Below, in pieces: positions 1 through 17,957 of a stretch of 64,000 nucleotides of DNA. The notes beneath the pieces are model-generated. The model ran no database searches. It was not told the DNA's origin and worked only from the letters and a program-made list of their open reading frames with translations. Where the stretch lies: positions 89,418-153,417 of the forward strand of contig JAGAKZ010000028.1 of assembly GCA_017848115.1 (NCBI GenBank). The letters run 5' to 3'. Each line of letters opens with the position of its first letter. Within the stretch, counting starts at the first letter, position 1. This DNA is from Oscillospiraceae bacterium (GTDB lineage Bacteria; Bacillota; Clostridia; Oscillospirales; Ruminococcaceae). Both the position numbers and the translations under genes were made by a program.

Positions 1-347
1 GTAATATGTTCCATACCCTGACTAAGAACAGTCTTTACATGTGCATCGGCAAGCGAATAAAATACAGTCTTTCCTTCTTTACGAAACTTTACAAGACGGG
101 ATTGTTTAAGTACACGAAGCTGATGAGAAATAGCTGATTGCTGCATTCCGAGTATATGAGCTATATCACACACACACATTTCTTCTTTCAGAAGAACAAA
201 TAATATCTTCAATCTCGTTCTGTCACCAAATATTTTGAAAAGTTCTGCAAGGTCAGAAACTATTTCATCTTTTGGCAACTCCCCTGATACCTTCTCAACA
301 ATATTGTCATGTACCTTATTTTCTTCACAAAGCATTTCGTCTTTCAT
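1..347 (-). CDS. ArsR/SmtB-family metal-sensing repressor (3' end beyond window)
   Basis: The reading frame starts at an ATG preceded by GGAAGGAAG and runs off the left edge without a stop (about 115 codons seen). It is a winged-helix ArsR protein: the DNA-reading helix is around QQSAISHQLRVLKQSRLV (residues 69-86). Two metal-site signatures are visible: MCVCD (Cys58, Cys60, Asp61) resembles the alpha3N site of CadC/SmtB, and D101-x-H103-x10-H114 matches the alpha5 zinc site of SmtB/CzrA. Family knowledge says such proteins leave the operator when they bind Zn, Cd or Pb. The target, probably a metal efflux gene, would lie left of the window. The family call is firm; the metal is inferred. Confidence 0.9.
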   Translation of the reverse strand, partial: MKDEMLCEENKVHDNIVEKVSGELPKDEIVSDLAELFKIFGDRTRLKILFVLLKEEMCVCDIAHILGMQQSAISHQLRVLKQSRLVKFRKEGKTVFYSLADAHVKTVLSQGMEHI

Positions 348-406
348 AAAACTTCCTTCCATAACTAGCAGATCAAACTATTTATTTTATACAATAACCT
401 ACTTTA

Positions 407-436
407 TATAATACATTATTATATTATTTTTGTCAA
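407..436 (-). promoter_or_regulatory. Promoter and probable operator of the ArsR gene
   Basis: Read on the minus strand, TTGACA (436-431) and TATTAT (413-408) are 17 bases apart. A perfect inverted repeat, TATAATA-ATG-TATTATA (407-423), covers the -10 region and spacer, the usual place for an ArsR operator. Autoregulation is inferred. Confidence 0.6.
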
Positions 437-462
437 GTTTCAGTGTTATTTTCAAAATTCCA

Positions 463-497
463 CAAAAAACAGCTTCAAAGATGCGAAGCTGTTTTTC
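463..497 (-). terminator. Terminator of the sugar ABC operon
   Basis: Stem AAAAACAGCTTC / GAAGCTGTTTTT (465-476 and 485-496) with a T-run on the minus strand, directly after the permease stop. Confidence 0.8.
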
Positions 498-503
498 TAT
501 ATA

Positions 504-1358
504 TTATTCTTTTACCGCACCTGAAACCATACCGCTGTAGATATATTTCTGAAGCGTTAAAAAGATCGTCAGAGTCGGAATTATACAAACTATGATTCCT
601 GCAAATATGATCTCCCACTTTGCTCCGTACGGACCTATAAATCTGTAAAGTGCTGTAGAAACTACGCCGAGTTCTTCGCTTGGCATATAGAGCTGTGGTG
701 TATAGAAGTTATTGTATATACCAACAAATTTTATGATAAGAACAGTTGCTATAGCCGGTCTTAACAAAGGAAGAATTATCTGAAAATAAATCTTTATATA
801 TGAAGCACCGTCCACTATCGCACTTTCATCAAGAGATACCGATATCTGACTTAAATACTGCATAAATATGTAGATAGAAACTATGTCTGTACCAACATAC
901 AATATAATATTTGACATCATTGTATCATAGAGATTTAACTTGTTTATTATCTGAAAAACAGTTACCTGCATTGAGATGCTTGGTAAAAGCATAGCAACAA
1001 GAAACGCATTTTTTACTGCTCTTGTCAGAATAGAATTGAAACGCTGTACAACAAATGCTGTCATTGTTCCTGTTACTATAGTACCTATACATGAAAATAC
1101 TATGATTATCAATGTATTTTTTAAACCGAGAAGAACCTTACCATTTACAAATGCCGTCTTGTAATTTTCAAAGTTCATTTTTGCCGGAAGTGAAAAAACT
1201 TCAGTTGTCAGATATTCCTTATGTGTCTTGAATGAACCGAGAAGAACGACAACAAGCGGAAATATTACAAGCAGACAACCAAATATCAGAAATGCATATT
1301 TGAGTGCATTCCATATCTTAGCCGACAGGCTGTTGTTATATGTAACTTTTTCATTCAT
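504..1358 (-). CDS. Sugar ABC transporter permease, MalG type
   Basis: This 284-residue inner-membrane permease of the carbohydrate-uptake (CUT1) class has a short cytoplasmic N-terminus, about six membrane segments and the conserved cytoplasmic EAA loop (ESAIVDGASYIKIYFQIILP, residues about 176-196) that contacts the ATPase. It is the last gene of a three-gene operon, 24 bases after the MalF-type partner. No ATPase gene is present; CUT1 systems of this kind usually borrow a shared MsiK-like ATPase. The sugar is not readable from the sequence, but the neighbourhood of cellulases suggests an oligosaccharide. Confidence 0.93.
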   Translation of the reverse strand: MNEKVTYNNSLSAKIWNALKYAFLIFGCLLVIFPLVVVLLGSFKTHKEYLTTEVFSLPAKMNFENYKTAFVNGKVLLGLKNTLIIIVFSCIGTIVTGTMTAFVVQRFNSILTRAVKNAFLVAMLLPSISMQVTVFQIINKLNLYDTMMSNIILYVGTDIVSIYIFMQYLSQISVSLDESAIVDGASYIKIYFQIILPLLRPAIATVLIIKFVGIYNNFYTPQLYMPSEELGVVSTALYRFIGPYGAKWEIIFAGIIVCIIPTLTIFLTLQKYIYSGMVSGAVKE

Positions 1359-1382
1359 AAAAAAATCTGCTCCTTTCTGATA

Positions 1383-2318
1383 TTATGTTTCTTCTTTGAA
1401 GACAGTCTTCTGAATTATTGTTACAACGATGGTTATCGACAAAAGAACCATAGCCATAGCAGAAGCAAGACCTATTTTGTCATAAGTAAATGCTGTTTCT
1501 ATTGTCTTTATTACAAAAGTTGTTGTTCCGTTTTTACCGCCTGTTATGATATACGGAGTTTCAAAAACAGATATTGCACCATTTACTGCAAGTATACACT
1601 GAAGTGCTATTATTGATTTTATGCTTGGAAATACTATATATCTGAATCTCTGCCACGAATTTGCACCATCAAGTTCTGCCGCCTCGTAAACATCTGTATT
1701 TATAGACTGAATAGCACCTATATACATAAGAATATCAAAACCGATATATCTCCAGAGAGAAACAAATACAAGACAGAAATTTGCAGTTTCAGCACCGAGC
1801 CATGTATACGGTTCAACACCAAATACTGAAAGAATACTGTTTAATGTACCCTGAGGTGATACAACACCGTCACCGTTTTTGAAAAAGTTTAAAAATATAA
1901 GCGATACTGCAACGCCGTTCATAAGATACGGGAAAAATAAAACCCCTTTAAAAAAGTTTTTACATCTTAATCTTGAGCACAAAACCGACGCAACCAGCAA
2001 TGCAAGCGCCTGCTGAATAAAAGAACCTATCAGGTAGTATATACTGTTTTTAAACGTCATCAGATAACTGCTGTCAGAAAAAATAGTTTTGTAGTTATCA
2101 AGTCCGACCCATTCTATATCAGTTCCCAGCTGTGAACGTTTCTGAAAACTGTATACTACCATATTTGCAGCCGGTACAAATGTAAACAGAATAAGAAGTG
2201 CCACCGGTATAAGTAAAAACACTATACTTGTTATTGCTTTCTGTCCGTCATAACTCTGTATCCACTGTTTTGCGGTTTTTTTACTCTTTTTTCCTGATAC
2301 AGTAAGTAAATCGTCCAT
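1383..2318 (-). CDS. Sugar ABC transporter permease, MalF type
   Basis: A 311-residue permease with a cytoplasmic N-terminal tail, about six transmembrane segments and the EAA motif EAAELDGANSWQRFRYIVFP (residues about 222-241). A GGGAGG ribosome site lies just before the ATG. It pairs with the downstream MalG-type protein and the upstream binding protein to form the importer. Expression relative to the binding protein is probably lowered by the hairpin at 2361-2396. Confidence 0.93.
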   Translation of the reverse strand: MDDLLTVSGKKSKKTAKQWIQSYDGQKAITSIVFLLIPVALLILFTFVPAANMVVYSFQKRSQLGTDIEWVGLDNYKTIFSDSSYLMTFKNSIYYLIGSFIQQALALLVASVLCSRLRCKNFFKGVLFFPYLMNGVAVSLIFLNFFKNGDGVVSPQGTLNSILSVFGVEPYTWLGAETANFCLVFVSLWRYIGFDILMYIGAIQSINTDVYEAAELDGANSWQRFRYIVFPSIKSIIALQCILAVNGAISVFETPYIITGGKNGTTTFVIKTIETAFTYDKIGLASAMAMVLLSITIVVTIIQKTVFKEET

Positions 2319-2360
2319 ACAAATCCTCCCTTTGAAATAAATGATTGCTAATTTTGCTCA

Positions 2361-2396
2361 AAAAAGGAGAGGATACGAAAACCTCTCCCCTTTTTC
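2361..2396 (-). terminator. Attenuating terminator between binding protein and permeases
   Basis: On the minus strand GGAGAGG-loop-CCTCTCC is followed by TTTTTT. It sits between the binding-protein gene and the two permeases. Such hairpins commonly let the binding protein be made in excess. Confidence 0.75.
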
Positions 2397-2415
2397 TTGC
2401 TTGTATATTGCTATA

Positions 2416-3825
2416 TTATCCTAAAACTGAATCTCTTGTTGCATTCCATTTTTTATTTATTTCATCAGCGATCTTCTTGAATCCTTCATCGCCCTCGCCT
2501 CTGAATGCAGCTTCGCAGAGTCTTACCTTGAAGTTTGCAGAATCCTGGAGATAGAAACCTACTTCTGATTCCTGATCTATCTGATCCCATACACCTACCA
2601 GATCTTCAGGAGCAGCATCAGATACAAAAAGTTCTACATTTTCAAAAGCTTCAAGGTATTCAGGCATCTCACTGCCCTTTACTGTCTGAACATAACCTTC
2701 ATTGTAAGCTATATTTGAATCTTCAACGTACCATTCAATATAAAGTTTACCAAGATCCTTCTGCTCTGAATGAATATTTATACCCATATTGTAGTCAGGA
2801 GCACTTTCTGCGTACTGAACACCGTTTACTGAAATAGGGCATGGCATATATCCTATATTTGCAGGGTCATCACCATTGGTTTCTGCTACCTCCTGGAACT
2901 GTGTAACAGCCCATGAACCCATACACATTGTAGCGATAGTGCCACTGCCTATAGCAGCCTTTGAACCTTCCCAGTCAGTAGTGTTAGGGTCAACTTCTAT
3001 AAGTGTAGGATCTGAAAATACATCATACATCAGTTTGAATACTTTGTAATGAGCCGAATCCTCTGCAAATACATCTTTCTTTTCTGCAAGAAGTTCATTT
3101 GTATAGTTGGAGTTACCAGATGCAGAATTTACAAGACTGGTCCACTGTGCAAGAGCCCATGTGTCTTTGAAATTTGTATAGTAAGGAATAGCATCTGTAT
3201 TGTCTCTGATTTTTTCAAGACATTCTATAAATTCTTCTTCTGTCTTAGGAAGAGTAGTGATCCCAGCTTCTTCCCATGTAGCCTTGTTGTAGCAAAGTCC
3301 GCCTGCTATAGAACCACCAATGGCAACACCGTATACTGTGTCATCGTACATTTTCTGATTTGCCCAGTTGTACTTTGCGTCCATTTCTTCATATGTACCG
3401 AGCGGTTCAAAATATGTACCAAGGTCTTTTACCTTTACTGTATCGGGAATCATAAGTACGTCGCCGTAGTCATCGGTACTCATCATTGTGGAAACATCAC
3501 TTGCGTAATCTGTAAATCCCTGATACTCTACCTTACAGTTGTACTTTTCTTCAAATTCTTTTGTCACTTCTTTAAGTGAGCCGTCTTCTATTCTGTCTGT
3601 TCTGTGTGTAAGAACTTTGAGAGTAGCACCGCCAAAATCATTACCGTCGGTTTTTTCTTCACTGTTGCCATCATCTTTGGACTCATCCGCATTTGATGAA
3701 TTATTGCTTGCCGTTGAAGAAGAACCTGTTTTTTCCTCATCGCCACCACAACTTGTAAATGATGCCATACAACCTGTTACCATTGTCAATGCAAAAAGCA
3801 TAGATACGATTTTCTTAATTTTCAT
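2416..3825 (-). CDS. Extracellular solute-binding lipoprotein, family 1 (sugar)
   Basis: The mature protein is a membrane-anchored sugar receptor for the two downstream permeases. The start chosen is the second Met of an MVM stretch because AAAGGTG sits 7 bases before it; the first ATG would overlap the ribosome site. The signal peptide ends in SFTSC-GG, a lipobox with Cys26. A Ser/Asn/Asp/Glu-rich linker (about residues 28-62) precedes the binding fold, which begins near GATLKVLTHRTDR. Family 1 receptors bind mono- or oligosaccharides; the ligand is unknown. Confidence 0.92.
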   Translation of the reverse strand: MKIKKIVSMLFALTMVTGCMASFTSCGGDEEKTGSSSTASNNSSNADESKDDGNSEEKTDGNDFGGATLKVLTHRTDRIEDGSLKEVTKEFEEKYNCKVEYQGFTDYASDVSTMMSTDDYGDVLMIPDTVKVKDLGTYFEPLGTYEEMDAKYNWANQKMYDDTVYGVAIGGSIAGGLCYNKATWEEAGITTLPKTEEEFIECLEKIRDNTDAIPYYTNFKDTWALAQWTSLVNSASGNSNYTNELLAEKKDVFAEDSAHYKVFKLMYDVFSDPTLIEVDPNTTDWEGSKAAIGSGTIATMCMGSWAVTQFQEVAETNGDDPANIGYMPCPISVNGVQYAESAPDYNMGINIHSEQKDLGKLYIEWYVEDSNIAYNEGYVQTVKGSEMPEYLEAFENVELFVSDAAPEDLVGVWDQIDQESEVGFYLQDSANFKVRLCEAAFRGEGDEGFKKIADEINKKWNATRDSVLG

Positions 3826-3889
3826 AACCATTCACCTTTTCAATCTTCTTAAATTTCAGTTTTGTTAAGTATAATTAATTACTATATTA

Positions 3890-3918
3890 ATTATAATTTG
3901 ATTTTATTAACTTGTCAA
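3890..3918 (-). promoter_or_regulatory. Promoter of the sugar ABC operon
   Basis: Minus-strand TTGACA (3918-3913), 17-base spacer, TATAAT (3895-3890). Just upstream, TAAACCGTTTA (3933-3943) is a near-perfect palindrome resembling LacI-family operators; that reading is tentative. Confidence 0.75.
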
Positions 3919-4063
3919 CTGTTTGTATAATATAAACCGTTTAAAAAAATAAAATTGTTTACTCTGACTGTTTATAATTAAAATTATAGTTCATATTAAC
4001 CATAGAATTTTATCAAATCAAGTATGTTTTATACTATTACGTCAATAAATGTATCAGGTGCGC

Positions 4064-4108
4064 AAAAAAACATCTCACTTAAATATTAAAAAATATTTAA
4101 GTGAGATG
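4064..4108 (-). terminator. Terminator of the DNA glycosylase gene
   Basis: A perfect 17-base stem (4071-4087 with 4092-4108) with a four-base loop is followed on the minus strand by seven Ts. It ends the gene at 4142. Confidence 0.85.
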
Positions 4109-4141
4109 TTCATGAATTCGAAAGTTAAATTAAGTAAAAAA

Positions 4142-4954
4142 TTATTTTTCAAGTAAATGACTGTTGTTTCTTACATAATGGAACAGATACTGTTGTGCTA
4201 TACCCTCATAACCTTTTGTACATTCAGGCATTCCGTCAGGATAAAAGTTCGCCATAACTTTCTTTATCCATACATCGACAGGAAAAGCTTCTGTCCGATA
4301 CATTCCAAAAAGCAGTACACAATCTGCAACTTTCGGACCTACACCCTTTATTTTCATAAGTTGTTTTTTAGCTTCCTCATACGGCATTTTTCTTATGCTG
4401 TCAAGGTCAGTTTCACCTGATAAAACTTTTTGTACAGCATCTATTATATATCCTGCCCGAAATCCTGCACGTAAAAAAGCAAGGCTTTCGGGTGTTTCTT
4501 TAGCCAGTGCCTCAGGAGACGGAAATCCATCGTATTTTTCACACATTCTTGATATTATGCCTTTTATTCTCGGTATATTGTTATTCTGTGATATTATAAA
4601 AGAACACAACGCTTCCCATGAGTCCTGTCTTAAAAGTCTTATCCCACCTGCAAAATCACATGCATTTTTTAATATGTCATCTTCAGAAAACCTTTTTTTC
4701 AGCACGGAATAATCAGTGTCCAGATCAAAATAAACAGACCATATATTCAGAAAATCTTCCTCATTTGTATTTTTAAAAACTATAACATTTTCTTTTTTAT
4801 GATATAGTTCAAGATATCTGTCAAGATAGTAACCGCTCCAGATACCGTTGTCATCACATTTCCATCTGAATGCCTGTCCGCAGTCAAGAGTCTGTGCCAG
4901 GTCAAAATCCTCCTGATAAAGCACTATATCTCCCTGTATCGCTTCATACTTCAT
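4142..4954 (-). CDS. ogg: 8-oxoguanine DNA glycosylase/AP lyase (OGG1-type)
   Basis: A 270-residue cytoplasmic base-excision repair enzyme. The N-terminal OGG domain (LDCGQAFRWK, about residues 24-33) is followed by the helix-hairpin-helix-GPD domain with GVGPKVADCVLLF, which carries the catalytic Lys, and FPVDVWIKKV, which carries the catalytic Asp. The length is close to that of bacterial and eukaryotic OGG1-type enzymes. It is a single gene with its own terminator. The sequence cannot prove the substrate; a broader 8-oxoG/alkyl-purine range is possible. Confidence 0.9.
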   Translation of the reverse strand: MKYEAIQGDIVLYQEDFDLAQTLDCGQAFRWKCDDNGIWSGYYLDRYLELYHKKENVIVFKNTNEEDFLNIWSVYFDLDTDYSVLKKRFSEDDILKNACDFAGGIRLLRQDSWEALCSFIISQNNNIPRIKGIISRMCEKYDGFPSPEALAKETPESLAFLRAGFRAGYIIDAVQKVLSGETDLDSIRKMPYEEAKKQLMKIKGVGPKVADCVLLFGMYRTEAFPVDVWIKKVMANFYPDGMPECTKGYEGIAQQYLFHYVRNNSHLLEK

Positions 4955-5015
4955 AAATCTGTTCCTTTCTGTACATATAATGTATAATCATTATTTTTTA
5001 TTATACCATATAAAA

Positions 5016-5175
5016 TTTTCAACATCAATCTACAAGGAAAAAATAAACATTAAACATTACTAACATTTTAACAACATTGAATTTTCCACCGTTTCAACAT
5101 AGTTTTCAACATTCATTTGATAACTTATCAACATTTGAATCAGATTTATTCAACATTTCAACAGACTTTTCAACC
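5016..5175 (+). repeat. Cluster of DnaA-box-like nonamers (TTWTCAACA)
   Basis: Eight related nonamers in 160 bases, all in one orientation: starts at 5016, 5082, 5091, 5103, 5125, 5147, 5155 and 5167. The best, TTATCAACA (5125-5133), differs from the consensus DnaA box TTATCCACA at one position. Several spacings are 12 or 22 bases, close to whole helical turns. The stretch has no gene. A role as a DnaA-binding or titration site is inferred. Confidence 0.45.
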
Positions 5176-5268
5176 GTAACTGTTCAAAAATATATTATGA
5201 AAATCTGAATAAATTTATGCCATATGTCAATAATCTGTTCGTAAAACATTTTTTCAGAGGTGACATTT

Positions 5269-5535
5269 ATGTTAAAAGGTGTAAACAAAAAGGTTATAGA
5301 AGTAAACGATACAGGAAATATGTATTTTGAAAAGGCGATACTCTATGTTCGTCCCAAAATGCTCACACTTCCGCAAAAACATCTTATGAAAGAAGCAAAG
5401 TATTATTTAAACGAAAATCTTCCCATATACGATCACAACGAAGAAAAATTTCTCAGAATAAAACGCTTTGCCGTTACAAGCGCTCTTTTCTGCGTTATAC
5501 TCTCTACAATAATAGTCGGACTTATGTGCAGATAA
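5269..5535 (+). CDS. Small membrane protein of unknown function
   Basis: An 88-residue protein that I do not recognise. AGAGGTGA precedes the ATG at a normal distance, favouring this start over an upstream in-frame GTG that overlaps the ribosome site. Residues 1-62 are charged and probably cytoplasmic; a single transmembrane helix (FAVTSALFCVILSTIIVGLM) ends the chain, with only two residues beyond it, the pattern of a tail-anchored protein. It stands alone between the DnaA-box-like cluster and rlmB. Confidence 0.7.
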   Translation: MLKGVNKKVIEVNDTGNMYFEKAILYVRPKMLTLPQKHLMKEAKYYLNENLPIYDHNEEKFLRIKRFAVTSALFCVILSTIIVGLMCR

Positions 5536-5633
5536 AAAATATCTGTGATCAGCTATAAACGACGTATTTACAGTCATAAACATTTTTGCCAATAAAATAA
5601 TTTCAGATTTTTAATTTTTTATCATCAAAACCA

Positions 5634-5662
5634 TTGTTTTTTACGCCACAAAATGATATAAT
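5634..5662 (+). promoter_or_regulatory. Promoter of rlmB operon
   Basis: TTGTTT (5634-5639), 17-base spacer, TATAAT (5657-5662), about 65 bases before the chosen rlmB start. Confidence 0.65.
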
Positions 5663-5728
5663 TAAAATTATTATGTGGTATATCAGAAAAACAAAAAAAT
5701 TTTTTTAAAAGTGGGAATCAATTTTAAA

Positions 5729-6496
5729 ATGAATGATAAAAAAAATTATCAGAACAACAATAACGCCGAAGATGACAATATCATATTCGGAAAAAATCCT
5801 GTGATGGAAGCATTGAAGTCAGGACAACCGATAAACAGTATATATATATCGGGAAGCGGTTCTCTTTTCAGTAAAATTTCATCTATGGCAAAAGAAAACG
5901 GCATTGTAGTAAAAAATGTCGATGACAAAAAACTTCATCAGATGTGTGGTTCTGTAGCACATCAGGGTGTTGTTGCCGCATGCGCTTGTGCAGAATACTC
6001 CACAGTTGAGGATATACTTGAAAACGCAAGAAAAAAAGGCAAAGATCCTTTTATCATAATCTGCGATGAGATAGAAGATCCTCACAATCTTGGGGCAATA
6101 ATAAGAACTGCGGAAGCTGCCGGTGCTGACGGCATAATAATTCCTAAAAGAAGAAGCGCCGCACTCACACCTACTGTTTACAAAACTTCAGCAGGTGCAG
6201 CAAGCTGGATACCGGTTGCTCGTGTGCCAAATCTTGTTTCTTCTATGGAATATCTTAAATCACAGAACATATGGATATACGGGACAGACGCTTCGGGGGC
6301 GGACTATACCACTACTGATCTCAGAGGCGGTATAGCATTTGTAATAGGGTCTGAGGGATATGGAATGGGAAAACTGGTAAAGGAAAAGTGCGATTTTCTG
6401 GTAAGTCTTCCTATGGCAGGACACGTAAATTCTCTTAACGCTTCAGTTGCCGCAGGCATATTTATGTATGAAGCGGTAAGGCAAAGAAACAAATAA
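5729..6496 (+). CDS. rlmB: 23S rRNA (guanosine-2'-O-)-methyltransferase, TrmH/SpoU family
   Basis: A 255-residue SPOUT methyltransferase that uses S-adenosylmethionine to methylate a 23S rRNA ribose. The N-terminal substrate-binding domain starts at IIFGKNPVMEALKSG. The three SPOUT motifs are clear: HNLGAIIRTAEAAGADGII, FVIGSEGYGM and SLNASVAAGIFMYE, which form the C-terminal knot. The ATG at 5729 is preferred; an upstream in-frame GTG at 5675 would add 18 residues and lies too near the promoter. The next gene starts 9 bases after the stop, so the two are probably co-transcribed. The exact G2251 target is assumed from family. Confidence 0.9.
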   Translation: MNDKKNYQNNNNAEDDNIIFGKNPVMEALKSGQPINSIYISGSGSLFSKISSMAKENGIVVKNVDDKKLHQMCGSVAHQGVVAACACAEYSTVEDILENARKKGKDPFIIICDEIEDPHNLGAIIRTAEAAGADGIIIPKRRSAALTPTVYKTSAGAASWIPVARVPNLVSSMEYLKSQNIWIYGTDASGADYTTTDLRGGIAFVIGSEGYGMGKLVKEKCDFLVSLPMAGHVNSLNASVAAGIFMYEAVRQRNK

Positions 6497-6505
6497 GGAG
6501 GAGTC

Positions 6506-9040
6506 ATGGCATCTACATCTAAGAATACGTATTCCATTGACGATATATTGAACGAGTATTCTGTTGACAATAAATCCCCTGAAAAACCTGAACCCAAAGA
6601 AATCACAGAAGATATAGATGTTTCAGTCGAAGAAATTTCTGAACCAGTTTCAGAAGATGACAACAATAAAATCGGTCAGGTTTCCAAAACAAATATTTTT
6701 ACTATTCCAAAAGAAAAAAATTTTTCTTCAAATAATTCTACCGATACTGAATTTTCCGACGAAACCGACAATGATGAACTATCTGAAGAAAATGATTTTC
6801 CTAATTTAAAGTCAAGTACGGACTTCTCTTACAGAAGTGCAACCCGTATACAAGACAAACCAAATAAGATACTCAAAAATCCGGAAAACAACATACGATA
6901 TGTCAAAAAACAAAATGACAATCCAAAAATAGCGAAAAAGAAAGAATTTCGGATATCACAAAATATAAAATCAGAAAAAAAACGTCTTGATACAGCTGTA
7001 TCATCAGCTGAAGAAACAGACAGTATTATGTCTGTAAAAGAAAAAATAAACTTTAACTTTAATCTTACCGAAAAAATAAACAAGCTCAAATCCGAACTTG
7101 TTGGCAAAAAAACAGTTGTCGAAAAAAAATCACAGATAAATGTAAAATCTATTCCTGAAGTAGATTATTTCTCAATAGACGTTAAAATAAACGAACCTGT
7201 TGTTGAAACAGAGAAAAAGAAAAAATCAAGATTCAGCGAATTTATAAGTGATATAAACAATGACTTCAGTCATTCGGTACAGAATAATCTTGATGATTAC
7301 AATTCACCCAAAGATGCATCACTCATCCTGGATGATCTCTATGATCTGAAAACAAATCTCTCGATAAAATTAGGTTTTCAGGTAGTTGCTCTTGTCGTCA
7401 GCATATATTTGTCAGCAGCATCTGTTTACAAATTACCTATTCCCAAAATCATAAGCCCTGAACATTCACCTCATGCTTACAGCTTTGCAATGTTTCTGGT
7501 AGCTGCTGCTGTGTTATTTACATCTTTTCCTGTAATAACGAGTGGTCTGAAAAATCTTTTCAGAAAAAAAGCTGACTGCGACAGTCTGGTTGCCATATCA
7601 ATGAGTGTGTGTACCATGGCTGCTGCAATTTCAACCGAAAGCCCCCATCTTATAAAAGGCGGACTTATACATATCTTCACTCCTGTTGCTATAGCAGGGT
7701 TTCTTGCAAATACAATCGGAAAACACCTTATTGTAAATCGTGCAATAAATAATTTTGACATGATTATCTCGGCAAATGAAAAATACGCCATGATATATGT
7801 TGATGATGAGGCAAAAGCCCAGCAGCTTACAAGGGGAACTATAAATGATTATCCTATACTTTCAGCTGTAAAAAAGACAAACTTTGCTGCTGATTTTCTA
7901 AAATACACATATTCGTCAGATATCTCGGATAAGTTGTGCAGTAAATTCATTACACCTGCCGTTCTGATTTCGCTTCTTCTGACGCTGATATCAATGTTTT
8001 TTTGTCACAAAAATATTGACACACTCAATATTTCATATATCACTTCAACATTTGCGCTCTTTATTTCAGCATTCAATTGTTTTGGCATACCGATAATCGT
8101 AAATCTTCCGCTTGCAAACGCAGCAGCTGAGGTCGAAGATAACGAAAGTATTCTTCTCGGATATCAGAGTATTGATGATTTTTACGATACAAATGCACTC
8201 TTGTTAAGTGCTACCGATCTATTCCCGAAACACTCAATAAAACTTTGTGCAATAAAGATTTTTTCAGATACCAAGATAGATACAGCAATAGTTGCTGCTG
8301 CGAGTCTGGTGTATCACGCAGGAAGTATATTTACCGAAATGTTTGAAAGAATTATTGACGGAGATCACACACTTCTTGAAAAAGTTGAAAATTATTCGTT
8401 CGAAGATTCTATGGGACTTTGCGGATGGATAAATAACAAACGTGCACTTTTTGGCAACAGACAACTTATGATAAATCACAACATAGAAGGATTACCTCCA
8501 AAGTCAAAAGAAAAAGACCTGATTGGAAAAGGCAAAACTGCAATGTATCTTTCAATCTCAGGAAATCTTGCTGCTATGTTTGTAGTAAAAATCAAAGCTG
8601 ATCCAAAAATTTCCGAAAATCTCAGAGATATAACCGACAACGGGACATCTCTTGTTATTAAAAGTATTGATTCTGTAGCTACAGTAAACAGAATATCAAA
8701 ACTTTTTGACATTCCTGAAAGTATGATAAAAATCATACCGGCTGAACTGCATGATTATTGTACAATATCAACCGCACCTGTTCCGCGTACAAGCTCATCT
8801 GTAATATGCAACGGAAAACTTTCTTCAGTAGCAAAGGCTCTTTCAAATATAAAACATATCTATCAGAATGTACTTACCGGAATAGTTCTCCAGAGTGTAT
8901 CTGCAATAATAGGAATGTTCATCGTTATAATGTTTATGTTCCTTGGTATAATAAATCAGGTTACACCTTTGATGCTGGTGTTCTATCACTGTGTGTGGAC
9001 ATTCATAACATTTGTAATTATGAAAGTCAGACCAAGATAA
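6506..9040 (+). CDS. Catalytically degenerate P-type ATPase-like membrane protein
   Basis: An 844-residue protein. Residues 1-270 are acidic/basic, Ser/Asn-rich and look disordered. From about residue 285 the order of elements follows a heavy-metal P1B ATPase: a membrane pair, DSLVAISMSVCTMAAAIS, a further membrane region, then NCFGIPIIVNLPLANAAAEV (523-542) where P1B pumps have the CPC helix, and ALLLSATDLFP (564-574) where they have DKTGTLT. The phosphorylated Asp is replaced by Ser568. The A-domain with its TGES motif is replaced by a short stretch, and no GDGxND motif is visible near the end, although nucleotide-domain remnants (FGNRQLM, GKGKTAMYLSISG) remain. It is therefore unlikely to pump ions. 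It follows rlmB in the same operon and has an AGGAGG ribosome site. Confidence 0.75.
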   Translation: MASTSKNTYSIDDILNEYSVDNKSPEKPEPKEITEDIDVSVEEISEPVSEDDNNKIGQVSKTNIFTIPKEKNFSSNNSTDTEFSDETDNDELSEENDFPNLKSSTDFSYRSATRIQDKPNKILKNPENNIRYVKKQNDNPKIAKKKEFRISQNIKSEKKRLDTAVSSAEETDSIMSVKEKINFNFNLTEKINKLKSELVGKKTVVEKKSQINVKSIPEVDYFSIDVKINEPVVETEKKKKSRFSEFISDINNDFSHSVQNNLDDYNSPKDASLILDDLYDLKTNLSIKLGFQVVALVVSIYLSAASVYKLPIPKIISPEHSPHAYSFAMFLVAAAVLFTSFPVITSGLKNLFRKKADCDSLVAISMSVCTMAAAISTESPHLIKGGLIHIFTPVAIAGFLANTIGKHLIVNRAINNFDMIISANEKYAMIYVDDEAKAQQLTRGTINDYPILSAVKKTNFAADFLKYTYSSDISDKLCSKFITPAVLISLLLTLISMFFCHKNIDTLNISYITSTFALFISAFNCFGIPIIVNLPLANAAAEVEDNESILLGYQSIDDFYDTNALLLSATDLFPKHSIKLCAIKIFSDTKIDTAIVAAASLVYHAGSIFTEMFERIIDGDHTLLEKVENYSFEDSMGLCGWINNKRALFGNRQLMINHNIEGLPPKSKEKDLIGKGKTAMYLSISGNLAAMFVVKIKADPKISENLRDITDNGTSLVIKSIDSVATVNRISKLFDIPESMIKIIPAELHDYCTISTAPVPRTSSSVICNGKLSSVAKALSNIKHIYQNVLTGIVLQSVSAIIGMFIVIMFMFLGIINQVTPLMLVFYHCVWTFITFVIMKVRPR

Positions 9041-9044
9041 TTTT

Positions 9045-9086
9045 AGCCATCAGGATCACTTATGATTCTGATGGCTTTTGATTTTT
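9045..9086 (+). terminator. Terminator after the P-type ATPase-like gene
   Basis: A 13-base stem (9045-9057 with 9064-9076, one G-U pair) is followed by TTTTGATTTTTT. Confidence 0.85.
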
Positions 9087-9103
9087 TAAGGAGAAGATAA
9101 AAA

Positions 9104-10186
9104 ATGAAAAAAATAATAGCACTTATAGCCGCTGTACAATTTTTAATATTTTCTTTTTCCGGTTGTTCAAAAGACAAAGAAAACAGCTCTTCGGAAAACG
9201 TTTCTTCATCACAGACAACTGAGAAACCTGTTATCCCAAACAGCGAATCTGATTTCGCATACAAAGTTGAGGGAGAAGAAGTAACGATAATCGGCTACAA
9301 AGGTACATCTACTACAGTAAATATTCCTGAAACAATAGAAGGAAAAAAAGTAACCAAAATAAGTGAAAAAGCTTTTGACGGTTTTGAAAAACCTACTGAA
9401 GATGATGGAAAAGCTTATAAAACAAATAACATTAACTCTATAACATCAATACACATTCCTTCATCTGTAAAAATTCTTGAAACAGGAGCTTTTACAAACT
9501 GCTATTCCCTTACATCGCTTACTCTCAGCGAAGGACTTGAAACAATTTGCGAAGGCGCTTTTGCCTGTTGTGATAAACTTTCGGCTGTAGCTATTCCTGA
9601 CAGCGTAAAGAAGATAGACAGTTATGCTTTTTTTGAATGTTACTCACTGCACGAACTTACAATGGGAAAATCAGTTGAAACAATAGGCGAATATGCATTT
9701 TACAGCTGTTACAATCTCCATAGTATGTCACTCTCTGAATCTCTCAAAGAAATGGGTACAGGTTGCTTTGCAGGCTGTAGCAGTATAGCCGAAGTAAAAA
9801 TCCCTTCATCTTTGTCATCTATTCCTGAATCTGCATTTTTCCAGGCATATTCCCTTACAAAGCTTGAACTTCCCGAAAGCCTTACAGAAATATGCAACAG
9901 TGCATTTTCAGGCTGTTCGGGTCTTACAGATATCACTCTTCCTAAAAAACTTGATTCACTCGGTGACTATGCTTTCTACAACTGCTCAGGCATATCGGAA
10001 ATAGCTGTCCCCGAATCAGTAACTAAAATCGGAAAATTTGCTCTCGGATACACTTATACTTCTGATGAAGAAACAGGTGAAGAAAGCGATGAACTTTTAC
10101 AGGAAAACTTCAAAATATCCGGAAAATCAGGTTCAGAAGCCGATAAATATGCAAAGGAAAATAAAATTACTTTTGTAGCAAAATAA
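9104..10186 (+). CDS. BspA-type leucine-rich-repeat lipoprotein
   Basis: A 360-residue surface lipoprotein. The signal peptide ends in a lipobox, FSFSGC (Cys at about residue 21). After a Ser-rich linker come roughly seven to eight LRR_5 repeats of about 23 residues (pattern IPxSVKxIxxxAFxxCxSL), from about residue 75 to 330. These repeats act as protein- or glycan-binding solenoids in other gut and oral bacteria; the ligand here is unknown. AAGGAG lies before the ATG. It follows a terminator, so either read-through or an internal promoter must drive it. Confidence 0.88.
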   Translation: MKKIIALIAAVQFLIFSFSGCSKDKENSSSENVSSSQTTEKPVIPNSESDFAYKVEGEEVTIIGYKGTSTTVNIPETIEGKKVTKISEKAFDGFEKPTEDDGKAYKTNNINSITSIHIPSSVKILETGAFTNCYSLTSLTLSEGLETICEGAFACCDKLSAVAIPDSVKKIDSYAFFECYSLHELTMGKSVETIGEYAFYSCYNLHSMSLSESLKEMGTGCFAGCSSIAEVKIPSSLSSIPESAFFQAYSLTKLELPESLTEICNSAFSGCSGLTDITLPKKLDSLGDYAFYNCSGISEIAVPESVTKIGKFALGYTYTSDEETGEESDELLQENFKISGKSGSEADKYAKENKITFVAK

Positions 10187-10187
10187 A

Positions 10188-10233
10188 ACAAATGACATCA
10201 TAGAACAAAAAATTCTATGGTGTCATTTGTTTT
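10188..10233. terminator. Bidirectional terminator between LRR lipoprotein and anti-sigma gene
   Basis: An 18-base stem (10188-10205 with 10213-10230, one G-U) sits between two convergent genes and has a T-run on each side. Confidence 0.85.
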
Positions 10234-10240
10234 GTGGTAA

Positions 10241-11578
10241 TTATTCTTCTTTAAGATATTTTTCACATATTATCAGCTGATCTTCATATGCCATCGCCAT
10301 CAGATAATTTCCATATGCCGACAATTTTTCGCGTTCTGACAACTCTTTTGTAAATAATTCCGTCAAGGTGTTGGTAACGGCATCATATCCTTTAAATGTA
10401 CGCCCATTAACAAGAATAAAATCGTATCCACCTGCGCCATGAGTAAAACCATCGTACCCACTTCTTGTATACTCATCATATTCATTATGACTGACACTAA
10501 ATTCATTATGACTGAGCATAGTCAATGTATCAGTGTCATATGAATCTATACTATAGACAGCACCGTTATCCACTGATTTCACCATGCCTGTTAATATATT
10601 TCCAAAACTATCAATATCAATTATTGAATTATAATATTCACCGCTTGCTATTAACTGACTTCCTAAGAATTCACCGCTTGTAAGTTTTGCTTTGCCAATA
10701 TAAAAATCATCATTGATTTTATACATACAATACATAATATTATCCTCATCAAAAACAACATCACAAAGGTTAAACTCTTCGTATCCGAATATTTCATTTA
10801 CACTTCTCTCATTTACTAATTCAAGCTCACTGTTAATTTCGCATACATGCGAATTTTCTTTCAGTGGTTCGTGTTCATCTGAGAAAATTTTAGAGTAAAA
10901 ATAATATAACTTTCCTTCTTTATCAAACGTGATTTTCTGGAAGTCATTTTCACCGATGCGTTCATCTTCAATTTGGGTATATTCACTAGTCTTACGATCT
11001 ACTTCATAAATACGACCTCCGCCATTCAAATGATATGCACCTCTCATGAAGTAGTACATTTTTTCATCTGTAAAGCAAACCTGATTATCAAAATAAGCAA
11101 AATCAGTTGGCGCTGCATTCTCTAACAGAATACTGTCAGTAACTTCACCGTCCATAGAGAGAAAATTGATATAAGTTCCTCTGGTTATTGTAAGCTCTTT
11201 TTTGGTTACTTCAGTAGTAGATGTTTCAGAAACCTTAGTTTCGGTCTGCGATACCACCGGTTCTGTAACTGTTGTGACTGTCGAAATCGATGCTGCCGGA
11301 GAATCATTATTTATATCAGACGGTTTATTATTCCTAAGATGAATCATCAGCACCAGTGATGCGCATATTCCGCCACATACTGCAAACCATTTTATAAAAT
11401 TATTCCTCTTACTATTTTTTACAACAATAACACTCGCTATCTTATCCTCACCGCCTTCTTTGTTTATCTTATCAATAACGTTCTTCTCTTTTTTATTATC
11501 CTGCATTTTCTTTACTTCCGGTATGTATTTTTCATCTGCCTGTCCTATCATATCAAGTATCTTTTCATTCTTTTTCAT
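10241..11578 (-). CDS. Probable membrane anti-sigma factor/sensor partner of the ECF sigma
   Basis: A 445-residue single-pass protein. A basic cytoplasmic tail (about 1-60) precedes one transmembrane helix (FIKWFAVCGGICASLVLMIHL, about 61-81), a Thr/Ser-rich linker and an extracellular part of about 300 residues with repeated strand-turn patterns (YYFYSKI, MYCMYKI, ILTGMVKS) that could be a beta-propeller. Its start overlaps the sigma gene stop by four bases, the usual coupling of ECF sigma and anti-sigma. No zinc-binding HxxxCxxC motif is visible in the tail, so it is not a ZAS-type anti-sigma; the role rests mainly on context. Confidence 0.6.
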   Translation of the reverse strand: MKKNEKILDMIGQADEKYIPEVKKMQDNKKEKNVIDKINKEGGEDKIASVIVVKNSKRNNFIKWFAVCGGICASLVLMIHLRNNKPSDINNDSPAASISTVTTVTEPVVSQTETKVSETSTTEVTKKELTITRGTYINFLSMDGEVTDSILLENAAPTDFAYFDNQVCFTDEKMYYFMRGAYHLNGGGRIYEVDRKTSEYTQIEDERIGENDFQKITFDKEGKLYYFYSKIFSDEHEPLKENSHVCEINSELELVNERSVNEIFGYEEFNLCDVVFDEDNIMYCMYKINDDFYIGKAKLTSGEFLGSQLIASGEYYNSIIDIDSFGNILTGMVKSVDNGAVYSIDSYDTDTLTMLSHNEFSVSHNEYDEYTRSGYDGFTHGAGGYDFILVNGRTFKGYDAVTNTLTELFTKELSEREKLSAYGNYLMAMAYEDQLIICEKYLKEE

Positions 11579-12126
11579 ATTGTAATCCCTTCTCTTTCTA
11601 AAAAATCTTTTAATGCTTTGCGTGTGCGTTGCAACGACATTTTTACGGCACCCTTAGTCATATCACACTGCCATGCTATCTCATCTACGGAGAACATATA
11701 CCAGTATCTGTACATAAATACCTCTCTGGATGAGTTTTTCAGGCTTCCGAGAAAACGATCGATAATATCCTTCCACACTATATCATCGGTAAGATTTTCA
11801 TCATTACCTGTACACTCTGCCAGTTCATCAAGACAAACGCTAAACTGACCACCGTTATTTTTCAAAGACGTATTTTTTCTGTATCTGTCTATTGAAATAT
11901 TACGTGTTATTTTCCCGAGAAAAACCGATAATTTGCTGGGACGATTATCCGGTATAGAGTTCCACGCTCTCATCCACGTATCGTTTACACATTCTTCTGC
12001 ATCTTCTCTTGATCCGAGAATTCCGACGGCTATTGAAGTGCAATATGAATTGTATTTGTTCTGACTTTCTGGGATTGCCCTCTCGGAACGTTGCCAGAAT
12101 AGTTCAACTATAGATTTATCATCCAT
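11575..12126 (-). CDS. ECF-type RNA polymerase sigma factor
   Basis: A 183-residue sigma-70 family factor with region 2 (SREDAEECVNDTWMRAWNSI, binding the -10) and region 4 (YRYWYMFSVDEIAWQCDMTK, the -35 helix-turn-helix). The start chosen is the Met with AGGAG nine bases before it; an upstream in-frame ATG would add 13 residues without a ribosome site. It forms an overlapping pair with the membrane protein downstream, so it is expected to be held inactive until an envelope signal is sensed. The regulon is unknown. Confidence 0.9.
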   Translation of the reverse strand: MDDKSIVELFWQRSERAIPESQNKYNSYCTSIAVGILGSREDAEECVNDTWMRAWNSIPDNRPSKLSVFLGKITRNISIDRYRKNTSLKNNGGQFSVCLDELAECTGNDENLTDDIVWKDIIDRFLGSLKNSSREVFMYRYWYMFSVDEIAWQCDMTKGAVKMSLQRTRKALKDFLEREGITI

Positions 12127-12170
12127 GTCATTTCTCCTGTTAATTGTTTTAGAAAAGCTTTTCAATAATA

Positions 12171-12199
12171 TAGACGTAATTTAGAACTGAAAAGTAACA
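12171..12199 (-). promoter_or_regulatory. Possible ECF-dependent autoregulatory promoter
   Basis: Minus strand TGTTAC (12199-12194) and CGTCTA (12176-12171), 17 bases apart, resemble the GTAAC/CGTC pattern of Bacillus ECF promoters. Autoregulation is inferred. Confidence 0.35.
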
Positions 12200-12212
12200 C
12201 TTTTTTCGATTA

Positions 12213-12241
12213 ATTATATCATTATTTTGTTCTCAAAGCAA
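12213..12241 (-). promoter_or_regulatory. Sigma-A promoter of the ECF operon
   Basis: Minus strand TTGCTT (12241-12236), 17-base spacer, TATAAT (12218-12213). The remaining 12242-12373 between the divergent genes shows nothing else I can support. Confidence 0.6.
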
Positions 12242-12373
12242 TATTCGTACTTTTTACAAGTATACACGAACAATACATTAAATTTATAAGTAACCGCTTA
12301 CACTCTTTCTTTAAACCATAATATAATTTTATCGTCATCTTGCACTATTTATGAATTATTTTTTCGCTCAGTA

Positions 12374-12402
12374 TTGATTTTACAATAATTATGATATATA
12401 AT
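12374..12402 (+). promoter_or_regulatory. Promoter of the PAS-GGDEF-EAL gene
   Basis: TTGATT (12374-12379), 17-base spacer, TATAAT (12397-12402), about 44 bases before the ATG. Confidence 0.7.
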
Positions 12403-12445
12403 AGACTTATATAGCCAAATATAAAAATATAGGGGGGAATCAACA

Positions 12446-15400
12446 ATGTATTCAAATTCATCAGGTAAAACCAGTAAATTCTACAACGATAACGATGATG
12501 GATTTTATATAACAGACACGTGCAATGGCAAAACAACTTGTGAGTATAACAGCAAATTTTCTGAAATCACCGGATACGACAATCCGTCAGAAATAGCAGG
12601 AAAAGATCTGAGCCAGCTTATTCATCCAAACGATCTTGGCAAATTCACAAATGCAAAGAAATCACTTTCAAAACAAAATCCTTTTGAAAGTTTCAATATA
12701 CGAATAATAAAGCGTGATCGCTCTGTACTTTATACAAGATGTTCCCTTATCCTTACCTTTACAGATGACGGATATGAAAGGATCATTCATGCTTTTACTG
12801 ATATGAATGAAAGTATGAATATAAAACAGCAAAACGATATATTTCTTTCTATGCCACCCATACTTTTCAAATTTCATCGTGAAGGACGGTTTCCTTATTA
12901 CTTTAATAACAGCTTTCTTGATGCTCTCGGATATACACGAGAAGAGATCACCGCTCTTAACATTACCTATAAGGATATAATCGCACCCGATGATGCACAG
13001 CTTATCATACACGCTGTCAGAAATACTATCAATTCAGATACAGTATCTTCATGCATTTTTAAAGTATATGACAAAGAAAAAAATATACACTGGATAAATT
13101 GTTCCTTTAAAAAACTGTCTTCCCCATCAGGAACACAATATTTTATGGGAATAGGAAATGATATAACCGAGCAGAAAAAAATAGAGAGTGAACTTGAAGA
13201 TATCCAGGCACTTCTTAATACGGTAACTTACAATACAAATTATGCTGTACTGGGAATTTCGGTTGAAAATAATAATCTTCCGATGATATTTTCAAATGAA
13301 AAATTCAGTGAAATGTTTATGTTTTCATCAGAAAAAATAAAACTTTTTTCCGATGACATATGCAGACATATAATCCACCCTGATGACTACGAATTTTTTG
13401 TAAAATCAGTTCTAAGCGACGATAAAGAAAACTTCCAGTGTCGTGCTGTAAAAAATAGCGGTGAAACTATACTTATAAGTGTACAGTGTTCAAAAATCAG
13501 AAACATATACCATACAGGTATAGTCTGTACAATATACGATATAAGCCATACAAATGCACTTTCAAATGAACTTGACAAATACGAATCACTTTATAACGAT
13601 TTTATAAATCTTCATTCTGCATTTTCTTTTAAAATAGACTTTTCGGAAGATACGGTAATTATCCCTGAAATATTTGCAAAAAGGCTTAATATAGGCACTG
13701 TTATCCCCGGTATTCCTAATTCAATTATTGATGCAGGATTTATTCCGAAAAATTTTGGCGAAGATTTTTGTAAAATGTATTACAGCGTAAAAAACGGAGC
13801 ACCGAAAGGAGCATGTGCTATCAGATTCAACTCCCCTGCCGGACGTTCGTTCTGGGCACAAATTCATATATTTCCTGTATACAATGAAGGTATATGTCCG
13901 ATAAAAGCTATCGGTACAATAGAAGATATCTCGGATAAAATAATGGCCGAAGAACAGCTTATGCACGAAGAATGGTATGAACCTCTGTTAAATTCCGATA
14001 CGCTTATGATGTGTATGGTAAATTTAAGTCAGAACAAAATATTATCTTTCCGACATAATAATGACAGTTTCAATATTCTTGAACCGCATATGTTTTTTGA
14101 CAATTGTTTTATTTATGACCTTGTATCGCTTATCCATATAGAAGAAAGACAATTTATCTCAGAACAGATCATTCACAAAAATTTATGGAAAGCATATCTC
14201 GGAGGCAATTACAATATAAACGTAAAATATCGTCTTGAAAATAATGAAGACGAATCACAATGGGTAGAAATGAGCATAAATTTTATAAAAAATCTGCCTT
14301 CAGATGATGTTATATTTGTAATGTACCTGAAAACTGCTTCACAGCTTGGAAAGAATAATGAAAACATTTCAAACAGTACAGAAGATGTATTCACAAAGAT
14401 TCCTTTCAAAACAACTGTAAACGAATTTTTCATGAAAAACAAATTCAACGGTTGTCTTCATGCACTGTACATACTTGATTTTGACGGTTTCAATAGTATA
14501 AACAATATATTTGGATATGATATAGAAAATCGTATCCTACAGGCTACAGCACAAAAGATAAATGCTCTTGAACATACAGTCACCATAGGAAGACTTTTCG
14601 GAGACAAACTTCTTGTATTTGCCGAAGATATCACCTCTTATGACGATCTTAACATAACAGCCAGAAATCTGTGTGACATCTGCCTTGCCATTACTATTGC
14701 CGGAGTAGATGTAAACAGTCTTTCTGTCAGCGTCGGTGTTGCTTTTGCACCATTGCACGGTATGGATTTTGACACACTTTACTCAAAAGCCGACAATGCG
14801 CTTTACAATGCAAAAAGATTTGGCAAAAACAAATATGCAATATACATTGATGCTTCAGGTGATAAAAAAGAAGCAAGCAACGAACATATATATAAAATAA
14901 CCAAGAACATCAATATAGATGAATTTAAAAAAGAAGCTTCATCTGCTATACTTCGTAAAAATGTCAACTATAAACTTTATAACGTTGATATGAAAAATTT
15001 CCGCAATATAAATCATTATTTCGGATATGAAACAGGCGATAAGATATTAAAGGAAACTTCCGAAATTCTTCAGAATGCTATGAAACCCGGAGAATATATG
15101 ACAAGAATATTTGCGGATAATTATCTGTTGCTCACAATTTACGAAAACGATGAAAAATCAAAAAAGCGTCTTCAGTCTTTGTGTGACAAAGTTCTCATGA
15201 TCCCCGAAATCTCCGAACATCTCACCTCATTCTCTATAGGATATATAGAAATCAACGATTCCAATCGTCATATCGAATTTGAACATCTGCTTGACTGCGC
15301 TATACTTGCCCACAGAAATTCAAAAAAATCGGAACAGACACGAATCGTTAAGTTCTCCTCAGAGATGACAGATGAGTCCATGCAACAATATCAGATCATA

Positions 15401-16171
15401 AGCGAACTTAAAGAAGCAATAAAATGTGGTCAGATATGTTGCTACGTACAGCCACAGTACGATCTTATCAGGCATGAATACGTAAGTATGGAAGCGCTTG
15501 TACGCTGGAACCACCCTATAAAAGGTCTGCTTACTCCTGATAAGTTCATTGATATATGTGAAAAGAACGGCTTTATAAGCAATATAGATTTTTGTGTACT
15601 TGAACAGATGTGCATGTACATAAGAAGCCGTATGCTTCAGAATCTGCGTGTTTTGCCTGTAGCTATAAACCAGTCGCAGATAACCATACATGAACCTGGA
15701 TATTTCAAGAGACTTACCGACCTTGTTGAAAAGTATGAAATTCCTCCAAGATATCTTGAACTTGAAGTAACAGAAAGCGCTTATGTCAACAACCTCGGTC
15801 ACACCATCGAAATACTCACAAAACTCAAAGATTATGGTTTCAGTATTTCCATGGACGATTTCGGAACCGGATATTCAAGTCTTAATCTTCTCAAAGATAT
15901 TCCTATAGATATCCTCAAACTTGACAGAGGATTTTTAACTGAAGGTCTTACAGAGAAGAAGCCTAAAGAAATAATAAAATCTATAACAAATATGGCTCAT
16001 AACATAAATGTACGTGTCATATGCGAAGGCGTTGAAAATCCTCAGCAGATACCTTTCCTTGAAGAAATAGGCTGTGAACTTGCACAGGGATATCTGTTCG
16101 GTAAACCTATGCCATACAATGAGATAGAAGATTTCATAAAATCTTCACCTATGCAGGCAGAACCCAAATAG
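12446..16171 (+). CDS. Multi-PAS protein with two degenerate GGDEF domains and an intact EAL domain
   Basis: A 1241-residue cytoplasmic signalling protein. It has an N-terminal series of PAS/PAC modules (about 15-125, 128-245, 255-370, 385-510), a further PAS-like stretch, GGDEF one (about 665-810), GGDEF two (about 840-965) and EAL (about 985-1230). The cyclase signature is FGDKL (718-722) in the first and FADNY (889-893) in the second, so neither should make c-di-GMP. The EAL domain keeps MEAL (1015-1018), the metal-binding DDFG (1137-1140) and CEGVE (1193-1197), so it should be a c-di-GMP phosphodiesterase, tuned by PAS ligands and possibly by GTP on the dead GGDEF domains. The start has AGGGGGG nine bases upstream. 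It is monocistronic, with a terminator at 16197. Confidence 0.9.
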   Translation: MYSNSSGKTSKFYNDNDDGFYITDTCNGKTTCEYNSKFSEITGYDNPSEIAGKDLSQLIHPNDLGKFTNAKKSLSKQNPFESFNIRIIKRDRSVLYTRCSLILTFTDDGYERIIHAFTDMNESMNIKQQNDIFLSMPPILFKFHREGRFPYYFNNSFLDALGYTREEITALNITYKDIIAPDDAQLIIHAVRNTINSDTVSSCIFKVYDKEKNIHWINCSFKKLSSPSGTQYFMGIGNDITEQKKIESELEDIQALLNTVTYNTNYAVLGISVENNNLPMIFSNEKFSEMFMFSSEKIKLFSDDICRHIIHPDDYEFFVKSVLSDDKENFQCRAVKNSGETILISVQCSKIRNIYHTGIVCTIYDISHTNALSNELDKYESLYNDFINLHSAFSFKIDFSEDTVIIPEIFAKRLNIGTVIPGIPNSIIDAGFIPKNFGEDFCKMYYSVKNGAPKGACAIRFNSPAGRSFWAQIHIFPVYNEGICPIKAIGTIEDISDKIMAEEQLMHEEWYEPLLNSDTLMMCMVNLSQNKILSFRHNNDSFNILEPHMFFDNCFIYDLVSLIHIEERQFISEQIIHKNLWKAYLGGNYNINVKYRLENNEDESQWVEMSINFIKNLPSDDVIFVMYLKTASQLGKNNENISNSTEDVFTKIPFKTTVNEFFMKNKFNGCLHALYILDFDGFNSINNIFGYDIENRILQATAQKINALEHTVTIGRLFGDKLLVFAEDITSYDDLNITARNLCDICLAITIAGVDVNSLSVSVGVAFAPLHGMDFDTLYSKADNALYNAKRFGKNKYAIYIDASGDKKEASNEHIYKITKNINIDEFKKEASSAILRKNVNYKLYNVDMKNFRNINHYFGYETGDKILKETSEILQNAMKPGEYMTRIFADNYLLLTIYENDEKSKKRLQSLCDKVLMIPEISEHLTSFSIGYIEINDSNRHIEFEHLLDCAILAHRNSKKSEQTRIVKFSSEMTDESMQQYQIISELKEAIKCGQICCYVQPQYDLIRHEYVSMEALVRWNHPIKGLLTPDKFIDICEKNGFISNIDFCVLEQMCMYIRSRMLQNLRVLPVAINQSQITIHEPGYFKRLTDLVEKYEIPPRYLELEVTESAYVNNLGHTIEILTKLKDYGFSISMDDFGTGYSSLNLLKDIPIDILKLDRGFLTEGLTEKKPKEIIKSITNMAHNINVRVICEGVENPQQIPFLEEIGCELAQGYLFGKPMPYNEIEDFIKSSPMQAEPK

Positions 16172-16196
16172 CCAAAACTCATTTTTATATTTATAA

Positions 16197-16233
16197 AAAA
16201 TCAGCAGTGAATATTTTTCCTGCTGATTTTTAT
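16197..16233 (+). terminator. Terminator of the PAS-GGDEF-EAL gene
   Basis: Stem AAAATCAGCAG / CTGCTGATTTT (16197-16207 and 16220-16230) plus a T-rich tail. Confidence 0.85.
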
Positions 16234-16281
16234 TATAATTTCAGGATTAAAAATTTAATTAATTTAAGTTCATCTGCTTTA

Positions 16282-16310
16282 TTGCATTATTAAAAATACT
16301 ATGTTAAAAT
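16282..16310 (+). promoter_or_regulatory. Promoter of the esterase-dockerin gene
   Basis: TTGCAT (16282-16287), 17-base spacer, TAAAAT (16305-16310). Confidence 0.65.

Positions 16311-17868: not shown

Positions 17869-17957
<89 letters not shown>

Follow-up and report, generated by a model that had tools for sequence, protein, structure and literature searches.

The locus studied here raises the question of what becomes of a pump protein once the chemistry that defines it has been lost. P-type ATPases are defined by a phosphorylated Asp and its cycle, and the window (the whole analysed stretch of 64,000 nucleotides) carries at 6506..9040 on the + strand an 844-aa frame with an ATG start that was assigned as a pseudo-P1B ATPase by the list of open reading frames, matches to the CopA and TIGR01525 models, alignment to 3rfu and its predicted fold. 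Upstream of this pseudo-pump lies an rlmB-like gene for a SpoU rRNA 2'-O-methyltransferase (5675..6496, +; Pfam SpoU_methylase 3.4e-44, SpoU_sub_bind 1.7e-20). The rlmB stop ends at 6496, and the gap to the pseudo-pump ATG is only 9 nt with an AGGAGG inside it, read from the sequence as the ribosome-binding site (6496..6501, +); the fully open frame and good ribosome site proposed in an earlier note on this DNA were both found. Just past the gene, a hairpin resembling a terminator (9045..9076, +; 14 pairs, then a T run) was detected in a scan that gave eight such sites on both strands of the scanned region against a shuffled mean of 2.1. Because of the short gap after rlmB and this hairpin, rlmB and the pseudo-pump look like one transcription unit.

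In order to place the protein among known families, we compared it with NCBIfam, Pfam and PDB. NCBIfam returned the CopA model PRK10671 at 4.9e-10 (38 bits against a cut-off of 1316) and TIGR01525 at 2.6e-8 (33 bits against a cut-off of 346), and among 22 relatives the CopA model matched all 22 (best 1.7e-20) and TIGR01525 matched 20. Pfam gave no family at E <= 1 for the 844-aa protein and no match at 0.01 for any of the 22 relatives. As Pfam is blind to the 22 scanned members and the NCBIfam scores lie far under their cut-offs, the family can readily escape notice or be taken for a copper pump. The sole PDB sequence match was LpCopA 3rfu, whose E value fell from 8.1e-10 for the single sequence to 1.4e-17 when a 22-row profile was used, and Foldseek on the predicted structure found the P1B-ATPase fold, with LpCopA 4bbj at 5.8e-16. 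The predicted fold contains eight membrane helices together with P and N domains, in a full-length AlphaFold2 model of only moderate quality (pLDDT 65.9). The earlier note had read the segment order of a heavy-metal P1B ATPase from the letters and had named structure prediction as a check, and the P1B fold came out, in line with the LpCopA matches.

Along the + strand, a disordered N-terminal tail (residues 1-265; 6506..7300) precedes helices MA-M2 from the AlphaFold2 model (residues 268-422; 7307..7771), which carry ADCDS and NxxGKxxxxxR; profile positions 21-143, covering MA-M2, match intact pumps outside the order down to 4.0e-16. An A-domain remnant of about 45 residues follows (residues 423-468; 7772..7909), conserved and of low pLDDT, so that the M2-M3 linker is conserved yet poorly structured in the model. 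M3-M4 (residues 469-543; 7910..8134), again from AlphaFold2, holds NCFGIP in place of CPC (8075-8092). The N domain (residues 576-698; 8231..8599) contains the block FEDSMGLCGWINNKRALFGNR (residues 632-652; 8399..8461), defined by conservation among 36 relatives, and M5-M6 (residues 782-841; 8849..9028), predicted by AlphaFold2, closes the protein. P1B copper ATPases (CopA, with LpCopA 3rfu/4bbj, and ATP7B) thus resemble the pseudo-pump in predicted fold, segment order, and the sequence of MA-M2 and of the P and N domains. In contrast to CopA, the pseudo-pump has an A domain of only that remnant size and a long disordered tail in place of the metal-binding domains, and it lacks the Lys of DKTGT, GDGxND, the N-domain His and the CPC cysteines.

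These losses were tallied over 111 aligned pseudo-pumps against 16 intact pumps; the 111 rows consist of a 98-row alignment, which omits L002, L006, L022, L058, L087 and repeated copies, plus 13 rows from behind rlmB. SATDLFP (residues 568-574; 8207..8227, +) aligns on DKTGTLT of LpCopA 3rfu, both with the single sequence and with the profile, which confirms the replacement claimed before. Neither the Lys of DKTGT nor the His of SEHP occurs in any of the 111 pseudo-pumps, and GDGxND is deleted in all of them, the 844-aa protein included. The first Cys of CPC is kept in 3/111 and its Pro in 58/111, and the CPC columns of the 844-aa protein read N-C-F. At the TGE columns, where the alignment is uncertain, G occurs in six members and E in four of the 111, and the 844-aa protein reads T-R-G with the same uncertainty. 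A shortened A domain/TGES region, NCFGIP for CPC and a missing GDGxND had all been claimed, and all were found. A normal P-type pump cycle is consequently very unlikely for this family.

Other positions are retained or new. The TGD Asp, Asp722 in the 844-aa protein (8669..8671, +), is present in 107/111, and in the GN motif Gly is found in all 111 and Asn in 58. The F and P of a new LFP were gained in 102/111 each. Within the N-domain block, E633, G637, C639, G640, W641, I642, N644, R646, L648, G650 and R652 are invariant in 36/36 closer relatives, which also all share D357, D359, N402, T442, G444, D472, D475, P535, N563, H658 and Q796. Ser568 had been read as standing in place of the phosphorylated Asp. 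This holds for the 844-aa protein but not family-wide, since the first DKTGT column has Asp in 56 members and lacks it in 55. Asp stands at column 1 or 2 in 93/111 and at neither in 18, among them the 844-aa protein, and 109/111 have an acid within the first four columns. As Asp occurs in 56/111 at the Ser568 column and Lys in none, Ser568 arose late, when the motif was broken already, and is particular to few members.

With acids remaining at the DKTGT columns and the TGD Asp, some chemistry or ion binding may persist. The family could accordingly be a non-canonical transporter that still moves an ion or a lipid through its residual acids or another energy source, in the manner of ERMA. Eight membrane helices and the invariant polar residues D357, D359, N402 and Q796, near or in the membrane, would suit such a function, as would the retained acids counted above. 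ERMA (TMEM94), an ER Mg2+ P-type ATPase, sets a precedent: it transports without TGES and GDGxND, the two motifs that the P-type fold of the pseudo-pump lacks as well (PMC13322241). ERMA, however, keeps DKQGI and depends on its Asp (PMC13322241), whereas both columns lack Asp in the 844-aa protein and the rest of the 18 members named above; ERMA is also eukaryotic and not of P1B type, and the 844-aa protein has Ser at the site of the Asp that ERMA retains. Taken together with the family-wide loss of Lys and GDGxND and the loss of the CPC cysteines, this makes a transporter the best of the alternatives to a scaffold or receptor, though a doubtful one.

We then surveyed how widely the pseudo-pump occurs. 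A profile matched at 1e-5 in 290 of 297 genomes of the window's family, covering 125 of 126 genera, and in 186 of 197 genomes of the order, which we take to be Oscillospirales of GTDB; named records among the matches were Ruminococcus and Oscillospiraceae. Because weak matches might be true pumps, 40 order loci with flanks were fetched, strong and weak alike. All 40 were without DKTGT and GDGxND, and rlmB lay directly upstream in 39, the remaining one being at a contig end. Seven of the 11 unmatched order genomes (G356, G396, G397, G415, G444, G445, G452) hold a diverged copy behind rlmB, and another, G451, has a pseudo-pump fragment at a contig end. rlmB was not found in the last three of the 11, G347, G368 and G379, nor in G234 and G266; it lies at a contig end in G227, and in G347 and G368 the only matches at a looser threshold were true pumps with DKTGT. 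Nine weak-match genomes of family f11 carry the pseudo-pump too. A copy was seen behind rlmB in 20 of the 22 order families drawn, f3 and f5 being outside the locus view; the genomes G016 and G215 (55% and 67% complete) were set aside. Orthologues behind rlmB, which the earlier note had suggested looking for, thus extend beyond the window's own family, and none of the copies examined there has an intact DKTGT at the phosphorylation site. The motif loss is not particular to the gene at 6506-9040 and runs throughout the sampled order.

The position of the gene is equally constant. rlmB is directly upstream in 121 of 121 distinct copies that could be judged. Sixteen of these had been located by way of rlmB itself and so are not independent, and 13 more copies had too little upstream sequence to judge. 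Outside the order, no pseudo-pump followed rlmB in any of five genomes, and 15 class-level matches taken as loci all had DKTGT and GDGxND. Within the window's family, G125 and G200, of one genus, have rlmB without a pseudo-pump following it, and the profile matched neither genome at 1e-3. No constant neighbour besides rlmB was seen by eye in 22 loci (23 were given, one without a hit). A gene that we labelled by eye, presumably EF-G-like, stands near the pseudo-pump in several loci. An in-frame TGA interrupts one of the copies behind rlmB (L058 in G316, family f21), leaving it split.

The pseudo-pump could also be a sporulation protein of the order, and Spo0A was indeed matched at 1e-40 in 85 of 94 genomes tested. 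Spo0A is so common in the order that this co-occurrence says little. Moreover, the nine genomes without a Spo0A match keep the pseudo-pump, eight of them as loci and G361 as a profile match only, and some of them are 95-100% complete (G096, G292, G329), which argues against a task in sporulation alone. The gene is also retained behind rlmB in four genomes of just 0.7-0.9 Mb (G068, G160, G087, G174), which suggests a core task or otherwise important role. We consider a sporulation protein unlikely.

Alternatively, the pseudo-pump might regulate a true P1B pump as its partner within one cell. The two share a fold, and all 40 genomes tested contained genuine P-type ATPases of one kind or another (PF00122). 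However, six of 20 genomes (G068, G160, G087, G174, G102, G255; 88-99% complete) have no P1B pump above the TIGR01525 cut-off, which could be missing through incomplete assembly, and all six keep the pseudo-pump behind rlmB. This speaks against a P1B subunit. The converse is seen in G125 and G200, where a P1B pump scores above the cut-off and the pseudo-pump is absent. A pump partner is therefore highly improbable.

Evolutionary analysis set the family apart. A tree was built by a short search from 49 pseudo-pump and 16 intact-pump sequences, with ten pseudo-pump rows on long end branches; one branch separates the two groups with an SH-aLRT of 100, and the pseudo-pumps are one clade apart from the intact pumps. 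Core dN/dS was 0.034-0.124 in ten pairs, the wider of which are near synonymous saturation; the core is under purifying selection. Motif loss thus goes together with purifying selection, as is expected of a pseudoenzyme, and the idea of a maintained pseudo-pump gained firm ground from the 290 matched family genomes, the place behind rlmB in all 121 judgeable copies and the core dN/dS. That the gene is a decaying pump, open by chance, as its missing catalytic motifs and the split copy of G316 might hint, was rejected as practically negligible, given conservation across family (290/297) and order, the fixed place, the low core dN/dS and the family's own invariant residues.

The N-terminal tail evolves differently from the core. 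It varies between relatives, is recognised by composition, low conservation and dN/dS, and 72% of its 265 residues are D/E/K/R/N/S/Q/P/G/T, so the disordered front of about 270 residues described before was accurate; in the closest pair, dN/dS was 0.21 in the tail versus 0.056 in the core. A tail precedes the core in 107 of 111 members, at 117-542 residues read stop to stop, which makes these lengths upper bounds, and some tails are cut by the stretch ends. The exceptions are four members of family f9 (L080, L081, L095, L107), with 8-9 residues before the core and a total of 553-554 aa stop to stop. A conserved motif lies mostly near the tail tip, with the consensus F/Y-S-L/I-D/E-D-I-L-x-E-Y/F/V; in the 844-aa protein it reads YSIDDILNEY (residues 9-18; 6530..6559, +). 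The regular expression found it in 60/111 pseudo-pumps, and a matrix trained on these 60 added 15 of the 47 other tailed members, with a score reached by none of 200 shuffles; only these 15/47 count as a test. Altogether 75 of 107 tailed members carry the motif, beyond chance in those outside the training set, and the scan did not see it in 32/107, some of whose tails are cut by the stretch ends.

A strict degenerate DNA pattern of the motif occurred at 36 places in eight genomes, and the reversed pattern at seven. Of 30 places examined, six were a pseudo-pump N-terminus (L202, L204, L205, L208, L215, L224) and the other 24 were internal to other open reading frames or in short ones; no other protein had the motif at its N-terminus among these 30 of 36 places. 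We also considered whether loss of Spo0A goes with loss of the tail motif. This was rejected: the tail bears the motif in three genomes where Spo0A is unmatched (G089, G371, G329), and G324 and G304 have Spo0A and are tailless (ORF <= 554 aa). In L025-L028 the motif is doubled inside the tail. Four members (L029, L031, L053, L054) have DKTG tetramers within the tail, remote from the site of phosphorylation.

A variable tether that bears a conserved motif, a linker that is conserved though poorly structured, and new N-domain invariants are what would be expected of a membrane scaffold or receptor. We therefore favour, at a probability of about 0.5, an order-wide pseudo-P1B ATPase serving in this role, close to the sensory or scaffold function that the earlier note had suggested. 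The retained acids, the 32 tailed members in which the scan saw no motif, the four tailless ones and the moderate quality of the full-length model weigh against it. The CopA-type body, with its eight membrane helices, degenerate P domain and well-kept N-domain fold, would provide the scaffold. The disordered tail would act as a tether whose motif, F/Y-S-L-D-D-I-L-x-E-Y near the tip, docks a cytoplasmic partner, and the conserved M2-M3 linker may join it in docking. The N domain with its invariant GLCGW-N-R block could then work as a ligand- or protein-binding switch rather than as a phosphorylating engine. More tentatively, and with less confidence than in the role itself, we suggest that a single conversion in the order's ancestor made a P-type ATPase into a receptor or scaffold and so founded a prokaryotic class, whose members form a core membrane hub behind rlmB, the tail motif recruiting a cytoplasmic partner and the old ATP-binding domain acting as switch. 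Almost without exception among the genomes sampled, and in a fixed position, this gut-bacterial order keeps a form incapable of the cycle. The family thus offers a clean natural case of a repurposed pump and raises a directly testable question, namely what the tail motif and the N domain bind.

A P-type domain tied to signalling has been described elsewhere. Alveolate guanylate cyclases carry a P4-ATPase-like domain, degenerate in Plasmodium GC-beta (PMC6592433). The likeness lies in a degenerate P-type ATPase domain; GC-beta differs in being of P4 type, cyclase-fused and eukaryotic, whereas the pseudo-pump is P1B and has no attached enzyme. Searches of open-licence PMC, which does not cover subscription journals and preprints, listed no description of the pseudo-pump family. 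The fold is known; within the reach of those searches, an order-wide, syntenic, catalytically stripped family of bacterial P-type ATPases is undescribed.

An allelic contrast was noticed between the window and G241 (L032, L235, L236). The flanks (1-6580 and about 9400-18109) are 98-99% identical, whereas the pseudo-pump gene (6580-9300) is only about 80% identical, and dS is 1.19 in the core versus 0.02 in rlmB. The gene looks as if replaced by a distant allele, and an assembly effect may also account for this contrast because two G241 contigs meet at the pseudo-pump 3' end. A hotspot of allelic exchange was rejected, as the contrast was limited to this pair among 21 (three without comparison, one with very little).

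Some neighbours of the gene recur by eye. Frames resembling the 91-aa one upstream of rlmB (5260-5535, +) occupy a similar position in L034, L193, L199 and L200. Past the terminator lies a gene for a leucine-rich-repeat protein of BspA type whose start is lipoprotein-like (9104-10186, +; Pfam LRR_5 1.8e-58), and lipoprotein-like starts are seen downstream of the pseudo-pump in L033 and L034 too. A 1241-aa protein (12446-16171, +), which we take by eye to resemble a PAS/GGDEF/EAL signalling protein, has counterparts with similar starts in L033 and L034, again downstream of the pseudo-pump. The end of the protein at 16332-17696 (+) resembles, by eye, what is presumably a dockerin, suggesting a cellulosome part.
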